Of a stretch of DNA of 48,608 bases, positions 19,249-39,296 are shown piece after piece. The notes under the pieces are model-generated. The model had not been told where the DNA came from and made no database searches. It saw nothing but the letters and a program-made list of their open reading frames with translations. Position numbers and translations under genes: made by a program. Origin of the DNA: Minisyncoccota bacterium (lineage in GTDB: Bacteria > Patescibacteriota > Minisyncoccia > Phycocordibacterales > UBA918); the NCBI GenBank assembly GCA_017992505.1, contig JAGOON010000003.1:1-48608 (forward strand). Reading direction: 5' to 3'. Position 1 is the first letter of the stretch. Each line of letters opens with the position of its first letter.

Positions 19249-20418
19249 ATGTCCAGAGTCGCGATATCAGAATATGCCGCCAAAAAGCTACTGATAGGGG
19301 ATGTGTACCGAGGGATTTCAGCGAAGACAGATTCTGACCTACTCACCGTCGACTTGGTCGAGGGTGTATACGTGGTGAAGGTCGATGACGGCACCAAAAA
19401 ACGCAACAAGAAAGGATTGGTGACCTTTGCTTCTAGTAAAGAGAACGCCATCTTTGAAGCAAAGCGTTTTTTATCTGCGGGATATAGTCGCATCTTGATT
19501 GAACCAAATATTGAACATGACGAAAAGACTGAGCAGTATGTCAGCTGTGATTTGGTTCGAGAAGGGATACTAGTGTTGTCTTCTGGGGCTGGCGGAGTGG
19601 CGGTGGAAGAGGGTCGTGAACAAGTAGCGAGGACACTGATTAGTCGAAGTGATTTTTTTTCTGCAGTAATTCCATCTATCACTGAAGTGTCTATGTTGGC
19701 GCTTGAAAAAATTACTACTGCCATGCACCGGTATAACTTTTCTTTTGTAGAAATAAACCCGTACATCGAGTCTGGTGATAGTGTCATTTTTTTGGATGCC
19801 GCTGTTGAGGTCGATTCGAGCAAATTACACCTATTGCCAGAATGGGCCCAAGAGCACACACAAAACAGACGAGTACAATCAGAGGCAGAGAAGCTAATCT
19901 CAAAACTCAATGATCAATCAACAGCATCTTTTTCCCTGACGGCCTTTGATAAAGATGCTTCCGTTTTTACTCTACTTTCGGGTGGTGGCGCGAGTCTGGT
20001 GGTACTTGATTCATTTGTTGATACTGGTTTGCAGGCAAAGGTTGGTAATTACGGCGAATACAGTGGCGCACCTTCTCAGGAAGAAACTAAAATATACACA
20101 GATGTACTCCTGTCTCTTTTATTTGCTTCAAGCGCACCACGAAAGGTGTTGGTTATTGCGGGAGGAGTCGCCAATTTCACTGACATCACCACTACTTTTC
20201 GAGGAATCATCGATAGTTGTCGTGGGTATGTCGATGAGTTTAAAAAGCAGAAGGTATTGGTTCGTGTTCGACGGGGTGGACCAAGGCAGGTTGAGGGATT
20301 GGCTTTACTCAGAGCATTTTTTGCAGAGAACAATATTGAGGCGATAGTTTCTGATTCTGGTGTACCACTGTCTGAAGTAGCAACTGATGCAAAAACGTTT
20401 CTCGAAAAAACATCATGA
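19249..20418 (+). CDS. aclB: ATP-citrate lyase, SucC-like (ATP-grasp/citrate-binding) subunit
   Basis: A 389-residue protein matching the N-terminal half of eukaryotic ACLY and the small subunit of bacterial two-subunit ATP-citrate lyase. The ATP-grasp part includes FVEINPYIESGD near 165. The citrate-binding part shows LLSGGGASLVV near 243, NYGEYSGAPSQEET near 267, IAGGVANFTDITTTFRGI near 303 and VRRGGPRQVEGL near 342; these align well with ACLY, including the citrate-contacting Asn, Thr and Arg segments. It would help form citryl-CoA from citrate, ATP and CoA. It overlaps the large-subunit gene by 4 nt. No other TCA-cycle gene is in the window. Confidence 0.85.
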   Translation: MSRVAISEYAAKKLLIGDVYRGISAKTDSDLLTVDLVEGVYVVKVDDGTKKRNKKGLVTFASSKENAIFEAKRFLSAGYSRILIEPNIEHDEKTEQYVSCDLVREGILVLSSGAGGVAVEEGREQVARTLISRSDFFSAVIPSITEVSMLALEKITTAMHRYNFSFVEINPYIESGDSVIFLDAAVEVDSSKLHLLPEWAQEHTQNRRVQSEAEKLISKLNDQSTASFSLTAFDKDASVFTLLSGGGASLVVLDSFVDTGLQAKVGNYGEYSGAPSQEETKIYTDVLLSLLFASSAPRKVLVIAGGVANFTDITTTFRGIIDSCRGYVDEFKKQKVLVRVRRGGPRQVEGLALLRAFFAENNIEAIVSDSGVPLSEVATDAKTFLEKTS

Positions 20419-22139
20419 TAGATTTACTTCGTACACGACCACAATCGATTATTGTTGCTGGCGCACATTCAGCGATTATTCAGTCTGTTTTGGATTTTGA
20501 CTACGTACGTGGCGCCGATACTCCTAGTATTACAGCTATCGTGGGTGGGAATAAAAATGCACACAAATGCTGGTTTGGCGACAAGGAGATATTGCTTCCA
20601 GTCTTTAAGGATTTTGGAATCGCAAAGAAATCGGAAATAGGAGCGATGTGGCTTTTGAATATTGCATCAGGTAATAGTGCTCGAAAAATGACTCTGTCAT
20701 TTTTCGAGCACTACCCTGAAGCCCTCGGAGCACACCTTTTTGCTGAAAATGTTTCGGAGCAAGATGCCCTTACTCTTGTTGAACGATATGGTTCAACAAA
20801 GCTCATTGCTGGCGCCTCGGGTGTTGGGTTGCTGGTACCAGGCGCACTTAAGCTTGGTGCAATTGGAGGAATCTATGGCGGGAATATAAATCTACTTGGT
20901 CGTCATTCTGGAAATACAGCTATTGTTTGTAGTTCAGGTGGAATGGTAAATGAGATTGTTGATTCTGTACTACGCGCTGGTGGAGCGCCGAGTTTTGCGG
21001 TCTCATACGGAGGAGATCGATTTCCGATTACGTCGTCACTACAATGGTGTCTTGAGGCAGAGAGGGATCCATCAACAGAACAAATTCTTTTCTTCGGAGA
21101 ACTTGGCGGTCAAGACGAGTATGCAATTGTTGAAGCCGTAAAGCTGGGTAATATTAAAAAACCGATAATTGCATACATCGCAGGGCACTATGTAGGTGGT
21201 GAAGAAAAAGTACAATTTGGTCATGCGAAAGCTCTTGCAAAAACTCCAGACGAAGATGCAAGTTCAAAAATGAAAGCACTCGCAGATGCAGGGGTGATAG
21301 TTGCGCAGACGTACGCTGATTTTGTTACACATATTAAAAACCTAAAACATACACGTATGGAAAATTCTAAAGAAAGAGATTGGCAGGCACCAGAAACCGC
21401 TCGCAACACATCACTCTTTACCGCCGTGGTTGATAAAGGAAAGGGAGTCGATGGTTTCGTTCGGCACGCGCTATGTACGCTCCTTGAGCGTGAATCAGTA
21501 TCAGATGAATTGGTTGAATTTTCTGAACTCACATACTCGCTTCTTATCGACCATGGAGCAGAGGTGTCTGGTGCGGTAAATACAATGATTACCGCGCGTG
21601 CGGGCAAGGATATGGTGTCTTCGCTCGCGTCTGGTTTGCTGACGATTGGTAATCGCTTTGGCGGAGCGATTAATGGTGCGGCGAGTAATTGGTTTTATTC
21701 AGTCAGAAATAATATGGCGATTGAAACAATGCTCGAGGAGCATAAAGTAAAAGGCGAGTACGTGCTCGGTATCGGCCACCTCAAATATTCAGTCTACGAA
21801 CCAGACGCACGTGTTCAAAAACTGATTTCGTTTGCGAAGGAGCGACTCACTCAACCGGCTTATCTTGCCTACGCAGAAGCGACGGCAGTACGAACGACAG
21901 AAAAGAAACCAAACCTAATTTTAAATGTGGACGGTGCCGTCGCCGCTATTTTGATAGATATCTTAATGGAAAAAGAAAAGTTCACGACACAGCAGATCGA
22001 AGAGTTGATAAAGATTGAATTTTTCAACAGCTTTTTTATTATCCCACGCACTGTCGGATTTATCGGTAATTACCTCACGCAAGCTCGCCGTGATGAAGGC
22101 TTGTTTCGTTTGCCCTCAGATCAAATTTTTTACGAGTAG
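20415..22139 (+). CDS. aclA: ATP-citrate-lyase-like large subunit with altered citryl-CoA lyase site
   Basis: 574 residues: a SucD-like CoA-ligase part (about 1-310) and a citrate-synthase-homology part (about 330-574). The phosphohistidine is preserved at His270 in VQFGHA. In the lyase domain the second catalytic His (His455 in GIGH) and the Asp (Asp506 in LNVDG) are present. The His of the VSGAHNT loop (human ACLY His900) is Val388 (VSGAVNT), and the Arg after GIGH (human Arg976) is Leu456. The surrounding loop ARAGKDMVSSLASGLLTIG is otherwise highly conserved, so this is not general decay. Citryl-CoA cleavage may be impaired, or the enzyme may use another acyl-CoA. Equivalences are from memory of the human sequence. 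Confidence 0.82.
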   Translation: MIDLLRTRPQSIIVAGAHSAIIQSVLDFDYVRGADTPSITAIVGGNKNAHKCWFGDKEILLPVFKDFGIAKKSEIGAMWLLNIASGNSARKMTLSFFEHYPEALGAHLFAENVSEQDALTLVERYGSTKLIAGASGVGLLVPGALKLGAIGGIYGGNINLLGRHSGNTAIVCSSGGMVNEIVDSVLRAGGAPSFAVSYGGDRFPITSSLQWCLEAERDPSTEQILFFGELGGQDEYAIVEAVKLGNIKKPIIAYIAGHYVGGEEKVQFGHAKALAKTPDEDASSKMKALADAGVIVAQTYADFVTHIKNLKHTRMENSKERDWQAPETARNTSLFTAVVDKGKGVDGFVRHALCTLLERESVSDELVEFSELTYSLLIDHGAEVSGAVNTMITARAGKDMVSSLASGLLTIGNRFGGAINGAASNWFYSVRNNMAIETMLEEHKVKGEYVLGIGHLKYSVYEPDARVQKLISFAKERLTQPAYLAYAEATAVRTTEKKPNLILNVDGAVAAILIDILMEKEKFTTQQIEELIKIEFFNSFFIIPRTVGFIGNYLTQARRDEGLFRLPSDQIFYE

Positions 22140-33042: not shown

Positions 33043-33079
33043 AATACACTGTACTTATAGATAGTACAGTGTATTTTTC
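33043..33079 (+). terminator. Perfect 13-bp hairpin after gatB, next to the HTH gene promoter
   Basis: AATACACTGTACT (33043-33055) and AGTACAGTGTATT (33063-33075) enclose a 7-nt loop and run into TTTCT. It fits an intrinsic terminator for gatB, but it also covers the expected -35 region of the next gene (-10 at 33083), so it may double as an operator. Confidence 0.75.
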
Positions 33080-33098: not shown

Positions 33099-34187
33099 AT
33101 GGAGGCGGTGATCTTTGATGGCAAGGAGTATGTAAAGGCATCAGTAGTTGCTGAGAAGTTTCGCTATACTCAGGATTATCTCGGGCAACTCTGTCGAGGT
33201 AAGAAAGTAGACGCAAGGCTTGTGGGGAGGGCATGGTACCTAAATCTTGACTCTCTTGAAGAGCATCGGACTGGACGGCACAAAACACCCGCCAAATCTT
33301 CTGCGGCAGTTCCTAAAAAAGTCAGTAGTAACTACTTATCTCGGATAGATGTAGAGCCAGTGCTGAAAAATAAGACGGTAAAGATTTTTAAGGAAAAAAA
33401 CGGAAAAATGATGGAGCTTCCTGTTCGTTATGAACAGGACGAGTACTCGCTCATTCCACGGGTGAATAAATCAGCAATAAGTACATCTATACCAATACTG
33501 CCGGCTGAGGCAGAAAGGCTTAAAATCAAGAAGGAAGCCAATAAGCTTAATGTTACGGACTTCAAAGCCGAAGCTCTCCCGGAGGTTTTTCTATCGGGGG
33601 CAGTTAAAGTTGATGGAATACCAGAAGCGCTTGAGGAAGACGACTCAACTAGGTCAGATATAACAAATAAAATAAAGCCAGGACTGACTAACACGCCCTC
33701 ACCAAAGCGACTTGTCTCGGTGAGACAACCAGTTAAAAGATTACCAATGGGGACTCGTGTAGACATGAGACCAGTCGAAAGTCACAAAAGACTTGAGATA
33801 CCAAATACGGCAGTCGCTTCGCTTTCATCAATAAAAGCTACTGAACGAGCTCCAGAGACATTTAAAAAGCAGATACCCAAGCACCCTTCGTCATTAGGGG
33901 TAAGCGCTAAGACCTCAGCAGACCAGCCAGCTGAAAACGGAAATAAAAAAGCACCAGTCAGGTTTTCACCAGATGTTGTCGTACCTCGAAAAGTCGTATC
34001 TAAAGTACCACCCAGAATTTCTGACTGGGTACTCGTTCTTGTGGTCTTTCTCCTCGCGACAATCGCCTCTCTTTTGGTGTTTGTAACAAATCGTGAGGTG
34101 CTGGTTGAGCGAGGTTCGTATGTTGATAATCTCTCCTTTGATATCTCGAATCTCAATACATTTTTGATGCCACTTTTTACTAACTAG
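33099..34187 (+). CDS. Membrane-anchored protein with N-terminal excisionase/MerR-like HTH (paralogue 1)
   Basis: 362 residues of unknown function. Residues about 6-58 form a winged-HTH-like unit of the excisionase/MerR type (ASVVAEKFRYTQDYLGQL, KKVDARLVGRAWYLNLDSLEEH). A long, Pro/Lys/Ser-rich and probably disordered linker follows (about 60-300). One transmembrane helix lies at about 305-328 (WVLVLVVFLLATIASLLVFV), with a 34-residue tail predicted outside. The HTH would therefore face the cytoplasm. The next gene encodes a paralogue with the same order. This recalls ToxR/CadC-type membrane regulators, but homology to them is not claimed. It lies just upstream of the surface-protein locus, a possible target. 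Confidence 0.7.
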   Translation: MEAVIFDGKEYVKASVVAEKFRYTQDYLGQLCRGKKVDARLVGRAWYLNLDSLEEHRTGRHKTPAKSSAAVPKKVSSNYLSRIDVEPVLKNKTVKIFKEKNGKMMELPVRYEQDEYSLIPRVNKSAISTSIPILPAEAERLKIKKEANKLNVTDFKAEALPEVFLSGAVKVDGIPEALEEDDSTRSDITNKIKPGLTNTPSPKRLVSVRQPVKRLPMGTRVDMRPVESHKRLEIPNTAVASLSSIKATERAPETFKKQIPKHPSSLGVSAKTSADQPAENGNKKAPVRFSPDVVVPRKVVSKVPPRISDWVLVLVVFLLATIASLLVFVTNREVLVERGSYVDNLSFDISNLNTFLMPLFTN

Positions 34188-34218
34188 ATGTACGCACCTT
34201 TTTTGAGATAGTTTGGCG

Positions 34219-34224
34219 TATAAT
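34219..34224 (+). promoter_or_regulatory. -10 element of the second membrane-HTH gene
   Basis: A perfect TATAAT lies 18 nt before ATG 34243. No clear -35 is present. The gene therefore seems to have its own promoter separate from its paralogue. Confidence 0.5.
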
Positions 34225-34242
34225 TGGGATAATTAATAAAGT

Positions 34243-34974
34243 ATGAAGAGTGGTCTTGAAATCAATGGTGCAGAGCTTCAAAACATTCGTGCTGCGGCAG
34301 AGCGTACAGGCTATTCTCGTGACTACATCACTCGGCTTGCTCGTGAAGAAAAAATTATCGCTTCGCAAATTGGGCGGCAGTGGTTTGTCGATATTGATTC
34401 GCTTAAGGAGTATGCAACTGAAGTTGCCAACGAACAGAGTTTCCGCCATCAACAACTGAGTGAAGAGCGCAGACAGGAACGTCTCGCACAGGAGAAAAGA
34501 AATACTCGGGTAAAGAAGAATCACACTCGTACGCGTCGTGGAATGGTACTGCAATCTCATACACTTGCAGTCGGTGTCTTATCTCTCGGACTTGGCTTGG
34601 GTTTTTTGCTTAATCAACTCCCAACATTTTCTTCTGACTACAGCACTCAGGTTGCAAGTGCACCGTCAGTACAGCCTCTTGAGGAGTACACTGTGGAGGA
34701 CAGGCCTGTTGGCGAGAAAGACATCACTTCGGGTGTTGAGTTCTCACATGAGTCGGTCGGACTCGCCACCATGGAAGGTGCTTCAGAAGGCATTTTGCTT
34801 TTACCAGGAGGAACTGGCTCTTCTAGTAACCCCGCCAAACTTTTTTCTGATGACGTTAGGGTGATGGTTGATGAGCATGGCCAGCAATTTATAGCTAGAC
34901 TTAATGATCATGGACAGATGGTTGAGAGAATTCCTTTCGTGGTAGTACCAGTTACTAGCAGTAGCACACCATAA
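34243..34974 (+). CDS. Membrane-anchored protein with N-terminal excisionase/MerR-like HTH (paralogue 2)
   Basis: 243 residues. The N-terminal HTH unit (about 8-58: IRAAAERTGYSRDYITRLA, then KIIASQIGRQWFVDIDSLKEY) aligns along its whole length with that of the preceding gene, sharing the GR-W----DSL-E core. A strongly basic, Arg/Gln-rich linker (about 62-100) precedes one transmembrane helix (about 105-124), and the remaining 120 residues would be extracytoplasmic. The arrangement could sense an envelope signal and control nearby genes (inference). No enzymatic motif is seen. The sequence after the stop (34975-35144, 170 nt) has no gene; it would hold the promoter of the surface locus. Confidence 0.7.
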   Translation: MKSGLEINGAELQNIRAAAERTGYSRDYITRLAREEKIIASQIGRQWFVDIDSLKEYATEVANEQSFRHQQLSEERRQERLAQEKRNTRVKKNHTRTRRGMVLQSHTLAVGVLSLGLGLGFLLNQLPTFSSDYSTQVASAPSVQPLEEYTVEDRPVGEKDITSGVEFSHESVGLATMEGASEGILLLPGGTGSSSNPAKLFSDDVRVMVDEHGQQFIARLNDHGQMVERIPFVVVPVTSSSTP

Positions 34975-35093
34975 AGTCTTGAGACTCGTTCAGTTAAGAG
35001 CATAGGTTTTTACATGAAATACTCGCTTTATAGAGAAATGGTTAGATGTTATACACAGAGTTCGGTGTTCGGAGAGAAATTGTCTGCTTAGAG

Positions 35094-35131
35094 TTGGTAT
35101 CATTGGGTTAATACAGTAGCAATAGGTACCA
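35094..35131. repeat. Imperfect inverted repeat upstream of the surface-protein locus
   Basis: TTGGTATCATTG (35094-35105) and CAATAGGTACCA (35120-35131) are near-inverted copies (TGGTA..ATTG / CAAT..TACCA) around a 14-nt centre. It lies 14-51 nt before ATG 35145, where an operator or promoter would be expected. Its significance is uncertain. Confidence 0.3.
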
Positions 35132-35144
35132 GATATATCATTAT

Positions 35145-35849
35145 ATGAAGACACAACTAACAACAGGCATATTTACTCAAGCTGTCGCGCAAGCTGGCGT
35201 CGCTGCGACACTCATTGTGTCGCTCCTTACAATAGGTTTTTTCGCAATAGAACCACAGATTGGTCACTCTGCGGAAAGTGTCGACTTTCGGGTTCGTCAA
35301 ACAATCACAGATGAAACTTCATTCTCAGTAAATCCTTCAAATGTCACGATGAATGGGGGTATTGCTGGCCTGACTGGAGGTACTGCTACGGGAACTACTG
35401 GTTTTGTTGTTCGTTCTACAAATGCTAGTGGATACTCTGTTACTATCGACTTCTACGATAACGCTGGCTTGTACGCCATGCTTGGTGACGAAGATGGTGG
35501 CGAAGAAATTCGAGACTACGCACTTGGTGCTGGCACTCCAACATTTAACATGACCGCCAGCACAGCAGCACAATTTGCTTATAGTGTGCACTCGAGTAGT
35601 ACCGCAGACTCAGCTGATGTATTCTGGACTAACGGAACTACTTGTAACTCTGGTGCGGGTAGTTCATACGGGAAATGTTGGAAGTCTCCAAGTACTAGCG
35701 CCATAGAGGTAGTGAATCGAAACACGTCAGCCACAGCAGGTGCAACTTCAACGCTTGTATTTAAGGTACACGTGCCATCTGGGGCTACACCAACTCCAAC
35801 AGCGCAAACTTACACTGCTACCGCTACCTTGTCAGTGGTTGCCCAATAA
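35145..35849 (+). CDS. Small secreted beta-rich surface protein, WxL-like layout (paralogue A)
   Basis: 234 residues with an N-terminal hydrophobic export signal (about 14-42). The mature part is Thr/Ser/Gly-rich and probably all-beta. It shares a domain with the protein at 36912: a GLTGGTATGTT block, then GYSVTIDFYDNAGL, a C-x(9)-CW segment (TTCNSGAGSSYGKCW), and a closing YTATATLSVV strand. The closing strand and overall size resemble WxL domains of Gram-positive surface proteins, which end in a YTATLTW-type strand; the WxL tripeptide itself is missing. The gene is followed by a DUF916-like membrane protein, the usual neighbour of WxL proteins. No membrane anchor or sorting motif is present at the C-terminus. 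Confidence 0.62.
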   Translation: MKTQLTTGIFTQAVAQAGVAATLIVSLLTIGFFAIEPQIGHSAESVDFRVRQTITDETSFSVNPSNVTMNGGIAGLTGGTATGTTGFVVRSTNASGYSVTIDFYDNAGLYAMLGDEDGGEEIRDYALGAGTPTFNMTASTAAQFAYSVHSSSTADSADVFWTNGTTCNSGAGSSYGKCWKSPSTSAIEVVNRNTSATAGATSTLVFKVHVPSGATPTPTAQTYTATATLSVVAQ

Positions 35850-35868
35850 GGTACCCTGTAGTCACATT

Positions 35869-36897
35869 ATGACTACTATTCAAACCATTCTTCTTTGTTT
35901 TGCGCTTGTGCTCACACCTCTCTCTGGAGAGGTGTTTGCACAATTTTCTGAGACCGCCTCTACTTCTGAGTCCACCAACTCTGTTACCGCTGAAACAACT
36001 TTGACACAAGAAAAGTGGTATCGCTCAGAGAAGGTTGAAGGAAATATTGATATAGGGGACTTTGTGGTTGGACCTGGTCGGGCTGAGATTACCGTTTCGC
36101 CAGGAGAGACTCTTGTTCAAGAAATTACAGTTACCAACCGTATCTCTGCTGGGCGTACATTTAAGCTTGAGGTAGAAGATATTACTGGTAGTGTCGATGG
36201 TAGCTCAGCAGTATCGCTTACTGGTACTGAGCGGGGTCCGTACAGTATTCGCGATTACATTTCATTTCCAACTGATACATTTGTCCTTGATTTAGGAGAG
36301 CGTGCTCGTATCCCCGTCACAATCAAAATTCCTGAAAATGCAGAACCCGGCGGATTTTATGGTAGCGTGCTCGTTTCAACTGACCGTACTGGTACTTCAG
36401 ACGCTGGTGCTCCGCGGTCACCGATAGTTGCACGCGTTGGATCGCTTTTCTTTGTCACCGTTCGTGGTGATATTGAGATGTCGGGTGAAACAAAGGATAT
36501 TAAAACACTCGATGGGAAGGTGTGGTATGAAGAGGGTCCAATCAACCTTGGTATTACTTATGAAAACACTGGTTCAGTACACGTCAATCCATACGGAGAA
36601 GTTTCAATCTCTAACATGTTTGGAGAAGAGGTCGGTTTTGTGGAGCTTGAGCCGTGGTTTGTGTTACCAAAATCTCTCCGATCCCGCGAAGTAACTTGGG
36701 ATAGAGAGTTTCTTTTTGGTCGGTATAAGGTAACTGCAAGAATCAATCGTGGTTATGAAAACCAGATTGATGAGGTTAATACGGTTTTTTGGGTGTTACC
36801 TTGGAAGATTGTTCTTGGAATCTTCGTGATCGTCTTTACTGTTGTCTTTGTTATTAGGGCCTTCTTCCGCACGTTTGAATTTAAACGTAAATCATAA
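35869..36897 (+). CDS. DUF916/WxL-interacting-protein-like membrane-anchored surface protein
   Basis: 342 residues from ATG 35869, chosen because it begins the signal peptide (hydrophobic about 5-24, ending VFAQ). Two beta-sandwich parts follow. The first (about 55-200) has FVVGPGRAEITVSPGETLVQEITVTN and IPENAEPGGFYGSVLV, like the peptidoglycan-binding DUF916 part of WxL-interacting proteins. The second (about 200-300) has NLGITYENTGSVHVNPYGEVSI, like the following DUF3324-type part. A transmembrane helix near the C-terminus (about 310-332) and a basic tail (FKRKS) anchor it. Its neighbours on both sides are the paralogous small surface proteins. The family link rests on pattern and layout. 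Confidence 0.65.
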   Translation: MTTIQTILLCFALVLTPLSGEVFAQFSETASTSESTNSVTAETTLTQEKWYRSEKVEGNIDIGDFVVGPGRAEITVSPGETLVQEITVTNRISAGRTFKLEVEDITGSVDGSSAVSLTGTERGPYSIRDYISFPTDTFVLDLGERARIPVTIKIPENAEPGGFYGSVLVSTDRTGTSDAGAPRSPIVARVGSLFFVTVRGDIEMSGETKDIKTLDGKVWYEEGPINLGITYENTGSVHVNPYGEVSISNMFGEEVGFVELEPWFVLPKSLRSREVTWDREFLFGRYKVTARINRGYENQIDEVNTVFWVLPWKIVLGIFVIVFTVVFVIRAFFRTFEFKRKS

Positions 36898-36911
36898 GAG
36901 TACTTGTGCAT

Positions 36912-37673
36912 ATGGGAAACCGCTTCGCACCATCGCTCAGAATATCCGTGGTATTTACCGCGTTCATTTTGGTATGGATGCAGTTAGGTTCGGCGCAGGT
37001 AGCCACAAGCACCAACTACCAGCTTCAGAGTGACAGTATTAATTTCGGCGGAGGTCTCTCAACATCTACTAACTATCGACAAGAAAGCACCTTTGGAGAA
37101 ATTGCTACCGGTGAGGCAACAAGCACCAACTACAATCTTTATGCAGGGTATCAACAAATGCAAGAAGTGTTCCTCAGTATGACGGCACCTTCTGATGTTA
37201 TTCTGAGTCCAAATCTAGCGGGCCTTACCGGAGGTACTTCAAATGGCTCTACTACAGTAACCGTTACTACTGACAGTCCTGCTGGGTACTCACTCACACT
37301 CGAGAGTCAGAATAATCCTGCAATGCAAAATGGCGTCTATACGATTGATGACTACGATGAGGGCGCTGATGCAGACTTTTCATTTTTGGTGACAGCGGGA
37401 GTTGCACATCTGGGGTTCTCTCCTTCTGGAGTTGATGTTGCACAAGAATTTAAAGACAATGGTTCACTTTGTGGTGTGAGTTCTCAAGATACTGCGCTCG
37501 CATGTTGGGCAGGCCTTTCAACGCTCGGTACAGTGATTTCGGAAGGAACTGATGCAAATCATCCATCTGGAGCAACTACTACAATTAGTTTTCGCGTAGG
37601 AATCGGTAGTGGGGCGGGTGTTGTTAGTGGTGTCTACACAGCCACCACTACACTGACTGCTCTTCCGTTATAA
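36912..37673 (+). CDS. Secreted beta-rich surface protein, WxL-like layout (paralogue B)
   Basis: 253 residues from ATG 36912 (a GTG at 36906 is possible). The signal segment is about residues 10-30. Residues about 31-80 contain repeated S/T-TNY-LQ/Y units, a short repeat seen in CPR-type surface proteins. The rest is homologous to the protein at 35145: GLTGGTSNGSTTVTV, then GYSLTLESQNNPAMQ, a C-x(9)-CW segment (LCGVSSQDTALACW) and a final YTATTTLTAL strand. The Cys pair could form a disulphide outside the cell. It differs from its paralogue by the added N-terminal repeat part. The next gene has TATAAT overlapping this gene's stop codon. Confidence 0.62.
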   Translation: MGNRFAPSLRISVVFTAFILVWMQLGSAQVATSTNYQLQSDSINFGGGLSTSTNYRQESTFGEIATGEATSTNYNLYAGYQQMQEVFLSMTAPSDVILSPNLAGLTGGTSNGSTTVTVTTDSPAGYSLTLESQNNPAMQNGVYTIDDYDEGADADFSFLVTAGVAHLGFSPSGVDVAQEFKDNGSLCGVSSQDTALACWAGLSTLGTVISEGTDANHPSGATTTISFRVGIGSGAGVVSGVYTATTTLTALPL

Positions 37674-37674
37674 T
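37669..37674 (+). promoter_or_regulatory. -10 element overlapping a stop codon
   Basis: A perfect TATAAT overlaps the TAA stop of the preceding gene and ends 8 nt before ATG 37683. It may drive the FN3 protein gene separately; no -35 is obvious. Confidence 0.4.
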
Positions 37675-37682
37675 AAAGAGAC

Positions 37683-39296
37683 ATGAGATTTTTATTGTGT
37701 GCTGCACTTGCTTTCCTTGTACCTGTTACAAGTGTTTTTGCGCAAGAAAGTTCAAGTTTCAACATCCGGGTTTTTGGTGCCGAAGATATTGTTGCTCCAA
37801 CAACTCCAACACTTTCTGGTTCGGCAATCTCATATGATCAAATAGATTTATCATGGACGGTTTCCACCGATAACTATTTAGTTTCAGGATACGTACTCTA
37901 TCGAGATGGCTTACCGATCAGTACCACTACACTCACCAGTTACTCTGACGTGAGTGTTAGTGCGTCCACGTCGTATGTCTACACAGTCCGAGCGTTTGAC
38001 CCTTCTTTAAACTATTCCTCGTCTTCAAATCCAGTTTCCATAGACACCCCAGCGATGCCTGTAACTCCAGTTAATGTAGAGGGAAATAGAACGGCGACAG
38101 CAGCGAGGATTGTTTTAAATGAACTCACTGTTACTCCAGGATTTTCTACGTCAACTTTTTATATTAAGACTGCCAGGCCAGCTCGCTTCGAATTACGCTG
38201 GGGCAAAACTGACTCGTATGAGCTCGGTTATATTATCAACGATCGTTTTGTTGAATCGTATCGCACCACGCTTGCGGAACTCGAGCCAGGGACAACATAT
38301 TTTTATGAGGTCATCGGTTATTCACCGCTTGGGGTGGCGAATGTTCTTGAAAAAGGAAAATTTAACACACTCGACTTGGTAGACTTCCTACCACCAGCCA
38401 ATGTTCTTCGCTTCGGTGGATATGCAGATGCAGACAATGTTAAGCTCTCGTGGCAGATTCCCTTTTCAAGTAGGGCTTCATCAGTACGAATTGTTCGTAG
38501 CCACCTCGGTTTTCCGAGTCATCCGCAAGATGGAGTGATTGTGTATCAGGGAACAGGGGAATCATTTGTCGATAGGGATATCTTGGCTGAGCATTCTCCG
38601 GTTTACTACACAGCCTTTACGTATGATGTGGCTGGTAATACTTCTTCGGGTGCAATCGTGCGCGTGTATCGAATTGGCGACGGGGGTGATTCTGGAATTG
38701 CCTCACCAGTTATTGATGCGCCACTTGATGGTGATGGAGTTATTACCCAAGAAGAAGGCTTTGCTTCGACTTCACCTAGCCTGCCTGCAGGGATAAAAAT
38801 GCCTGACCTTGAACATATTTTTTTGTTGCAGAATAACAAACAACAATCATTTGCTGAATTAAAAATTGAACTAAGCTCAGTTGAGCAATTTGTTATCAGT
38901 ATTCCAAAGGAAGCGGTAACACTTAATCTGAAATCAATTATTGCAACGTTGACAGACCCGACTGATTCACGAAAAACCTACTCAGTACTGCTTCGTCTCA
39001 ATAAAGAAAAGACTGCATATGAAGCGGTAGTGGCACCACTCATGGTGGCGGGGATGTCACAGATTACCGTCGATATTTATGATTATAAAGTAGCGGTAGT
39101 AGGTACCTATCGTAAGACGGTGACTTTTATTGAAGGTCGAGATGGACTGAGTAGGGTGGGACTGTCGCTTGAAGAATTTATGGTGTGGGTACTTCCAACT
39201 TTGCTCGGTAGTGTATTTGCACTTCTCGCAAGTACCCTTTTCTTCTTGTTCTATAAACGACGACACCACTCTTCTCATGAGGATAACAACTGGTGA
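37683..39296 (+). CDS. Membrane-anchored fibronectin-type-III-like surface protein
   Basis: 537 residues. A signal peptide (about 1-20, ending VFAQ) is followed by an FN3 domain (about 36-122: PTTPTLSGSAISYDQIDLSW, then YVLYRDGLPI and SYVYTVRAFD). A second FN3-like segment (about 140-230) has RFELRWGKTDSYELGY and LEPGTTYFYEVIGYSPLG, and a third lies at about 235-330. The region after 350 is less defined. A transmembrane helix near residues 500-522 and a short basic tail anchor the protein, which would extend outside the cell. It is the last gene of the surface locus and could be an adhesin or scaffold (inference). Confidence 0.7.
   Translation: MRFLLCAALAFLVPVTSVFAQESSSFNIRVFGAEDIVAPTTPTLSGSAISYDQIDLSWTVSTDNYLVSGYVLYRDGLPISTTTLTSYSDVSVSASTSYVYTVRAFDPSLNYSSSSNPVSIDTPAMPVTPVNVEGNRTATAARIVLNELTVTPGFSTSTFYIKTARPARFELRWGKTDSYELGYIINDRFVESYRTTLAELEPGTTYFYEVIGYSPLGVANVLEKGKFNTLDLVDFLPPANVLRFGGYADADNVKLSWQIPFSSRASSVRIVRSHLGFPSHPQDGVIVYQGTGESFVDRDILAEHSPVYYTAFTYDVAGNTSSGAIVRVYRIGDGGDSGIASPVIDAPLDGDGVITQEEGFASTSPSLPAGIKMPDLEHIFLLQNNKQQSFAELKIELSSVEQFVISIPKEAVTLNLKSIIATLTDPTDSRKTYSVLLRLNKEKTAYEAVVAPLMVAGMSQITVDIYDYKVAVVGTYRKTVTFIEGRDGLSRVGLSLEEFMVWVLPTLLGSVFALLASTLFFLFYKRRHHSSHEDNNW

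Follow-up and report, generated by a model that had tools for sequence, protein, structure and literature searches.

The closest described systems to the locus reported here are the Pam pilus of the Candidate Phyla Radiation (CPR) and the WxL clusters of Gram-positive bacteria. The former is represented in NCBIfam (June 2026) by models for PamT (NF058579), PamR (NF058578) and Pam_pilin_C (NF058581), and a literature search found no papers on this pilus; NF058580 proved to be a lipase model. In the latter, a WxL-interacting protein (WxLIP) with a transmembrane helix is accompanied by secreted β-rich proteins (PMC10599100, PMC9772566). Here, we analyse a six-gene locus (P0001 to P0006 in order, Table 1) in a 48,608-nucleotide stretch of Minisyncoccota bacterium DNA (GenBank assembly GCA_017992505.1, contig JAGOON010000003.1), hereafter the window. 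We class the locus as a variant of the Pam/WxLIP kind and, by the criteria tested, place it outside the WxL family and the PamT equivalog. With a probability of roughly 0.55 it encodes a Pam-like module for surface fibres or display, with a membrane-held WxLIP that would serve as chaperone and a pair of helix-turn-helix (HTH) proteins that would act as regulators. A first-pass annotation of the window, made from its letters, had taken the combination as not known to be described; models for PamT, PamR and the Pam pilin already exist in NCBIfam, and it is the variant that is new.

With the Pam system the locus shares its phylum, a PamT-like protein together with pilin-type proteins, and the adjacency of the pilin genes to a WxLIP/DUF916-type gene and a further immunoglobulin (Ig)/PKD membrane protein; a WxLIP-type gene beside the pilins is a feature of the Pam loci seen here and not a stated NCBIfam criterion. 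It differs from that system in that its PamT-like protein scores 48.7 bits against a cut-off of 240, an FN3 protein without a PamR match stands in the place of PamR, the WxLIP gene sits between two small genes, and the HTH pair lies upstream. With the Gram-positive WxL clusters it has in common a WxLIP homologue with a transmembrane helix and two secreted, β-rich proteins flanking it in the same order. The first-pass annotation had drawn this parallel, and indeed the arrangement of a small protein, a WxLIP and a second WxL-type protein, with an HTH gene nearby, is that of the E. mundtii pQY024 cluster. Unlike in WxL clusters, both flanking proteins are small and there is no large WxL protein in the window, no W-x-L motif, WxL profile match or Pfam-detected DUF3324 is present, and the HTH proteins are of a different type and tethered to the membrane.

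The WxLIP-type protein and its small partners

P0004 is a true relative of the WxLIPs, both by sequence profile and by fold, as had been supposed when it was first called a DUF916-like anchored protein. Its single sequence matches WxLIP_PGBD/DUF916 at E 3e-4 (21.1 bits, below the Pfam cut-off of 27.3). A profile built from 49 of its relatives matches the solved E. faecium WxLIP EfmWxLIP1 at E 3e-10, and hhalign joins its family to four Enterococcus/Lactococcus WxLIPs (98%, E 1e-13). The AlphaFold model, with a predicted local distance difference test (pLDDT) score of 90, consists of two Ig domains (residues about 62–310) followed by a transmembrane helix (312–335), and includes a less ordered hairpin loop (about 173–188) with strands on either side (161–172 and 189–198). 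The WxLIPs of 9i1y (Z 15.7) and 9i25 (Z 15.6) are its best fold matches, followed by V. cholerae RbmA and then by many chaperone-usher chaperones, which match both Ig domains at Z 11–12; the pilus chaperone 6fq0_C, for instance, aligns over 182 residues at 4.2 Å (Z 12.1). DUF3324 (PF11797), the second domain of WxLIPs, has no Pfam match in this genome and none above cut-off in 99 genomes, and the corresponding second (DUF3324/HBD) region of P0004 is covered by the 9i1y fold alignment and by hhalign against one WxLIP.

Genes of the WxLIP type occur in 86 of 192 CPR genomes in a phylum-wide sample, and 26 of 40 WxLIP-type paralogue loci from the same order have a pilin-type gene on the same strand and no more than about 500 bases away. 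Within the window there are only two pilin-type matches, and both flank P0004. Elsewhere in the same genome, on contigs C2 and C9, WxLIP-type genes come immediately after genes whose products end like Pam pilins (weak matches). A tandem pair of WxLIP-type genes, encoding 336 and 577 residues, also follows a protein with a pilin-like end (L005:3-4065, same genome); many relatives have such a pair too, often with a neighbouring gene that escapes the pilin profile.

The two small proteins, P0003 and P0005, are paralogues (hhalign 100%, E 5e-46). In P0003, a signal segment precedes an Ig-like domain (about 58–234) with a conserved cysteine pair, whereas in P0005 a pilin-like Ig domain (87–253) follows N-terminal 'STNYxL..' repeats (28–86) that are mostly disordered in the model. 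A Glu-Pro dipeptide (P0003 residues 36–37), in the signal segment just ahead of the presumed cleavage site, is invariant in 34 of 34 sequences. Judged by their sequences, both proteins are relatives of the CPR Pam pilins: hhalign links the P0003 family (95%, E 7e-8) and the P0005 family (87%, E 4e-6) to the pilins of Pam and other WxLIP-type loci. In those CPR genomes that exceed the PamT cut-off, PamT has Pam pilins, PamR and a WxLIP-type gene as neighbours, and a giant gene is frequently there as well.

The first-pass annotation had likened the small proteins to wall-binding WxL proteins, noting that they lack a W-x-L motif. The motif is indeed missing, and sequence profiles do not support the likeness. 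Not one of 99 relatives has a PF13731 (WxL) match. When both families, and with them a wider CPR set, were compared by hhalign with 13 Enterococcus and Lactococcus WxL domains (from plasmid records plus one genome contig), the probabilities were 0.6–4%, which is not significant. Profile-profile comparison ties P0004 to WxLIP/DUF916 and shows no such link between the small proteins and WxL. A wall platform of the WxL kind, in which the WxLIP-type protein would hold both small proteins in a static, non-polymeric complex displaying the FN3 protein, and in relatives giant proteins, nevertheless draws on the homology of P0004 to WxLIPs, on the shared gene order and on the secreted proteins of 1000–2100 residues that many relatives have beside the core. 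Under a forced global alignment of the profiles, the GYxV of the small proteins also falls on GWxL and their C-terminal YxATxT on YxTTLTWEL of the WxL domains. Against these points stand the non-significant sequence link to WxL and the fact that the closest named relatives of the small proteins are pilins, and we regard such a platform as doubtful. Since these nearest relatives are Pam pilins, and by fold chaperone-usher pilins, 'pilus-like' describes the small proteins better than 'WxL wall-binding'.

The fold of P0005 points the same way. Its AlphaFold model has pLDDT values above 90 over most of the Ig domain, and 45 of the 50 matches listed by VIA are chaperone-usher pilins, with CsuA/B the best (Z 8.1) and FimG and the PapG/PapE pilins among the other best matches in both Foldseek and VIA. 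Among the 50 matches listed the WxL chain of 9i25 does not appear, an absence that is uninformative. Together with the fold of P0004, this recalls chaperone-usher pili (PapD/PapG, FimC/FimG, CsuC/CsuA/B, Caf1M/Caf1), in which a two-Ig chaperone likewise partners a pilin; here, however, there is no usher, the chaperone-like partner is membrane-anchored, and the likeness comes from predicted folds, not from sequence. The remaining listed matches of P0005 include two TLP-1 fibres (Z 7.2 for TLP-1) and two cannula fibres (Z about 6), and TasA is also found among its fold matches, suggesting another arrangement, in which the small proteins would self-polymerise like TasA or camelysin and the WxLIP-type protein would merely anchor them. 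This likeness is one of fold only. The matches concerned rank below the chaperone-usher pilins, and the WxLIP-type gene is constantly found between both small genes, so that we consider a fibre of this type improbable. We know of no chaperone-like partner for TasA-like or TLP-1 fibres.

The last protein of the locus, P0006, carries weak fn3 matches (Pfam), a transmembrane helix (about 498–522) and a short cytoplasmic tail. It has no match to the NCBIfam PamR model, but hhalign of its C-terminal domain and transmembrane helix against PamR gave 62% (E 7.5e-5), and P0006 is thus possibly a distant PamR counterpart.

Conservation of the gene order and of the HTH pair

Searching with P0004 gave matches in 63 of 146 related genomes, of which 40 places were annotated; leaving out three that held a distant paralogue alone and adding the window gives 38 orthologue loci. 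The core order (P0003, P0004, P0005, P0006) is whole in 33 of these 38, which span one CPR order. Four of the incomplete loci (L060, L062, L066, L076) are truncated by contig ends, and one (L074) is without the first small gene. This retention shows that the four-gene core is more than a chance arrangement, and the gene order proposed by the first-pass annotation thus stands for the core, while the HTH pair is recurrent without being universal. In closer relatives, the block is flanked by gatB and gapA. Many genomes of the same genus also carry one giant secreted protein of about 1000–2100 residues between the HTH pair and the core, with content that varies (Peptidase_S74, DUF7483, β-propeller-like); in more distant members the giant gene is placed after the FN3 gene, and the window carries none. 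Where it lies upstream of the first small gene (L041, L044, L049, L050 and others), its spot is fixed. These giant proteins of varying content may be exchangeable cargo.

The two upstream genes encode, as first described, HTH proteins with single transmembrane helices. In P0001, the HTH unit (residues about 1–79) is followed by a long polar linker, a transmembrane helix (about 303–327) and a short outer tail; the unit is undetected by Pfam alone and was assigned by alignment with P0002 and with orthologues. The HTH units of the two proteins align along the entire domain. P0002 has its HTH at residues 16–59, a transmembrane helix at about 105–125 and a conserved outer 'FSDxV' domain at about 187–242. 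It falls just short of the cut-off against Pfam HTH_17 (E 2e-5), is below it against NCBIfam excise (E 1e-4), and matches a PHROG excisionase (E 7e-4).

HTH proteins with a transmembrane helix are found at the locus in the window and in 13 related loci, and in four more (L126, L127, L128, L130) they lie behind the giant gene; both members of the pair are present in the window and nine other genomes. Wherever the pair occurs, it is on the same strand as the core, even when downstream of it (L065, L071), and in this genome it is found only here. Two loci (L059:8763-9929, L076:715-1812) encode tandem HTH units, one transmembrane helix and the 'FSDxV' domain in a single protein. The 'FSDxV' domain occurs in 12 loci and is retained in L070 and L074 despite loss of the HTH. 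The repeated presence at one locus, the tandem fusion, the kept outer domain and the single genomic occurrence suggest that a regulatory tie to the surface module is likely. The pair could instead be unconnected in function with the module it adjoins, its members being, for example, housekeeping regulators or RodZ-like membrane morphogenesis proteins. This explanation concerns the regulator part only and is compatible with any reading of the module. It would account for the loci in which the pair is lost or substituted (L069, L070, L074), for the giant gene that can separate pair from core, and for the result that no operator in common was seen ahead of the first small gene or ahead of the pair, where the alignment was poor. 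It fits less well with a pair that adjoins the core on the same strand across families, is unique to this locus in its genome, fuses in tandem with the same outer domain, and leaves that domain in position when the HTH is lost; on balance, we see an unlinked pair as the less probable explanation, though one with appreciable weight. That the pair forms a built-in envelope sensor, as the first-pass annotation ventured, is still a guess.

Layout of the locus and its surroundings

All six genes lie on the forward strand between gatB and gapA (Table 1). The hairpin behind gatB has the longest stem in the region, but the number of such sites there is not above chance (pattern scan). Hairpins are also visible in the same gap of three relatives (L057, L126, L128). 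The hairpin is probably a terminator that splits the locus from gatB, and together with those in relatives it suggests that the locus is probably transcribed as a unit of its own.

Table 1 Features of the locus and its borders (positions in the window).
Feature	Position	Strand	Description
gatB	end 33020		upstream border of the locus
Hairpin	33043..33075	+	13 pairs, then T-rich DNA; 22 bases past the gatB stop (pattern scan)
P0001	33099..34187	+	362 residues; N-terminal excisionase/MerR-type HTH, one transmembrane helix
P0002	34243..34974	+	243 residues; HTH_17/excisionase-type HTH, one transmembrane helix, outer domain
P0003	35145..35849	+	234 residues; small secreted pilin-like protein
P0004	35869..36897	+	342 residues; WxLIP/DUF916-type, C-terminal transmembrane helix
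P0005	36912..37673	+	253 residues; PamT-like secreted protein
P0006	37683..39296	+	537 residues; weak FN3, C-terminal transmembrane helix
gapA	from about 39348		downstream border of the locus

The window is contig C51 out of the 59 into which a genome of 0.75 Mb, estimated as 94% complete, is assembled; it has no match to RNA families anywhere along its length. A sortase-built pilus was considered and set aside: none of the six proteins has an LPxTG-type sorting signal by eye, and sortases are encoded on other contigs only. Elsewhere in the window, positions 1741–26062 form a surface polysaccharide region with a CDP-glycerol glycerophosphotransferase-like protein, a WbuX-like amidotransferase, an acyltransferase-SGNH protein, an O-antigen ligase-like protein with tetratricopeptide repeats and a DNRLRE-domain protein. 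Two adjacent genes at 19249–22139 include, as the second, a 573-residue fusion of succinyl-CoA-ligase-like and C-terminal citrate synthase-like parts, arranged as in ATP-citrate lyase and odd in so small a genome; the first of the two is without an NCBIfam match.

Proposed strand donation at the membrane

We infer that a chaperone-anchor held at the membrane donates a strand, since the WxLIP has a chaperone-like fold, its partner has a pilin-like one and the order of the genes is fixed. P0003 and P0005 would be exported as pilin-like, probably incomplete Ig domains, and P0004, which its C-terminal helix fixes in the membrane, would play the part of a PapD-type chaperone that is membrane-anchored. 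A strand donated from the hairpin in the first of P0004's two Ig domains would steady the subunit at the membrane, after which the subunit could be handed on, or linked into a chain by the N-terminal strand of its successor. P0006 may anchor or decorate the assembly. Regulation of the module is the likely dedicated task of P0001 and P0002, each of which crosses the membrane once, and the outer domain of P0002 may sense the state of the module outside the cell. A related event has been predicted with AlphaFold for E. faecium, where the WxLIP hairpin orders into a strand that fills a gap in the WxL domain and completes its sandwich (PMC10599100, in whose text the words chaperone and donor are absent).

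Several observations weigh against a fibre module of this kind. The usher family PF00577 is absent from this genome (an E. coli control was positive), so that a fibre would have to be exported and extended in some other way. No protein of the locus reaches the curated cut-offs for PamT or the Pam pilin: neither P0003 nor P0005 matches Pam_pilin_C, and the PamT match of P0005 (E 6e-13) stays well below a threshold that is passed by none of 146 relatives and by 11 of 380 genomes in the phylum. The pilin fold match of P0005 is borderline (its Z of 8.1 by the tool's own guide; best E 4e-3 in Foldseek), and Ig-like sandwiches are common folds. At the mature N-terminus of P0003, residues 48–60 form an alternating hydrophobic strand, with positions 48, 50, 54 and 60 hydrophobic in 34 of 34 sequences, 58 in two thirds of them and 52 mostly Gln; the pattern counts in favour of donation, but fits a plain strand as well. 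To these are added the losses of the HTH pair and the fact, described above, that no shared operator was seen.

More broadly, WxLIP/DUF916 proteins of CPR and Gram-positive bacteria might be membrane-anchored donor-strand chaperones, and Pam and WxL clusters an usher-free counterpart of chaperone-usher systems, here under the control of an HTH pair; we offer this extension only tentatively. If so, a simple route to making or presenting surface fibres without an usher may be common to a CPR group and the Gram-positives of the gut. WxLIPs, Pam pilins and the chaperone-usher fold are thereby brought under a single testable hypothesis, in which a chaperone held at the membrane donates a strand; if true, it would also explain why the WxL proteins of gut Gram-positives are stabilised by WxLIPs. 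The means by which CPR cells attach to hosts is a central unsolved problem, and in the literature we found only type IV pili have been studied in detail among their fibres. Given the share of CPR genomes that carry WxLIP-type genes, a module common to WxLIPs and pilins would give these bacteria a second surface system of wide distribution.

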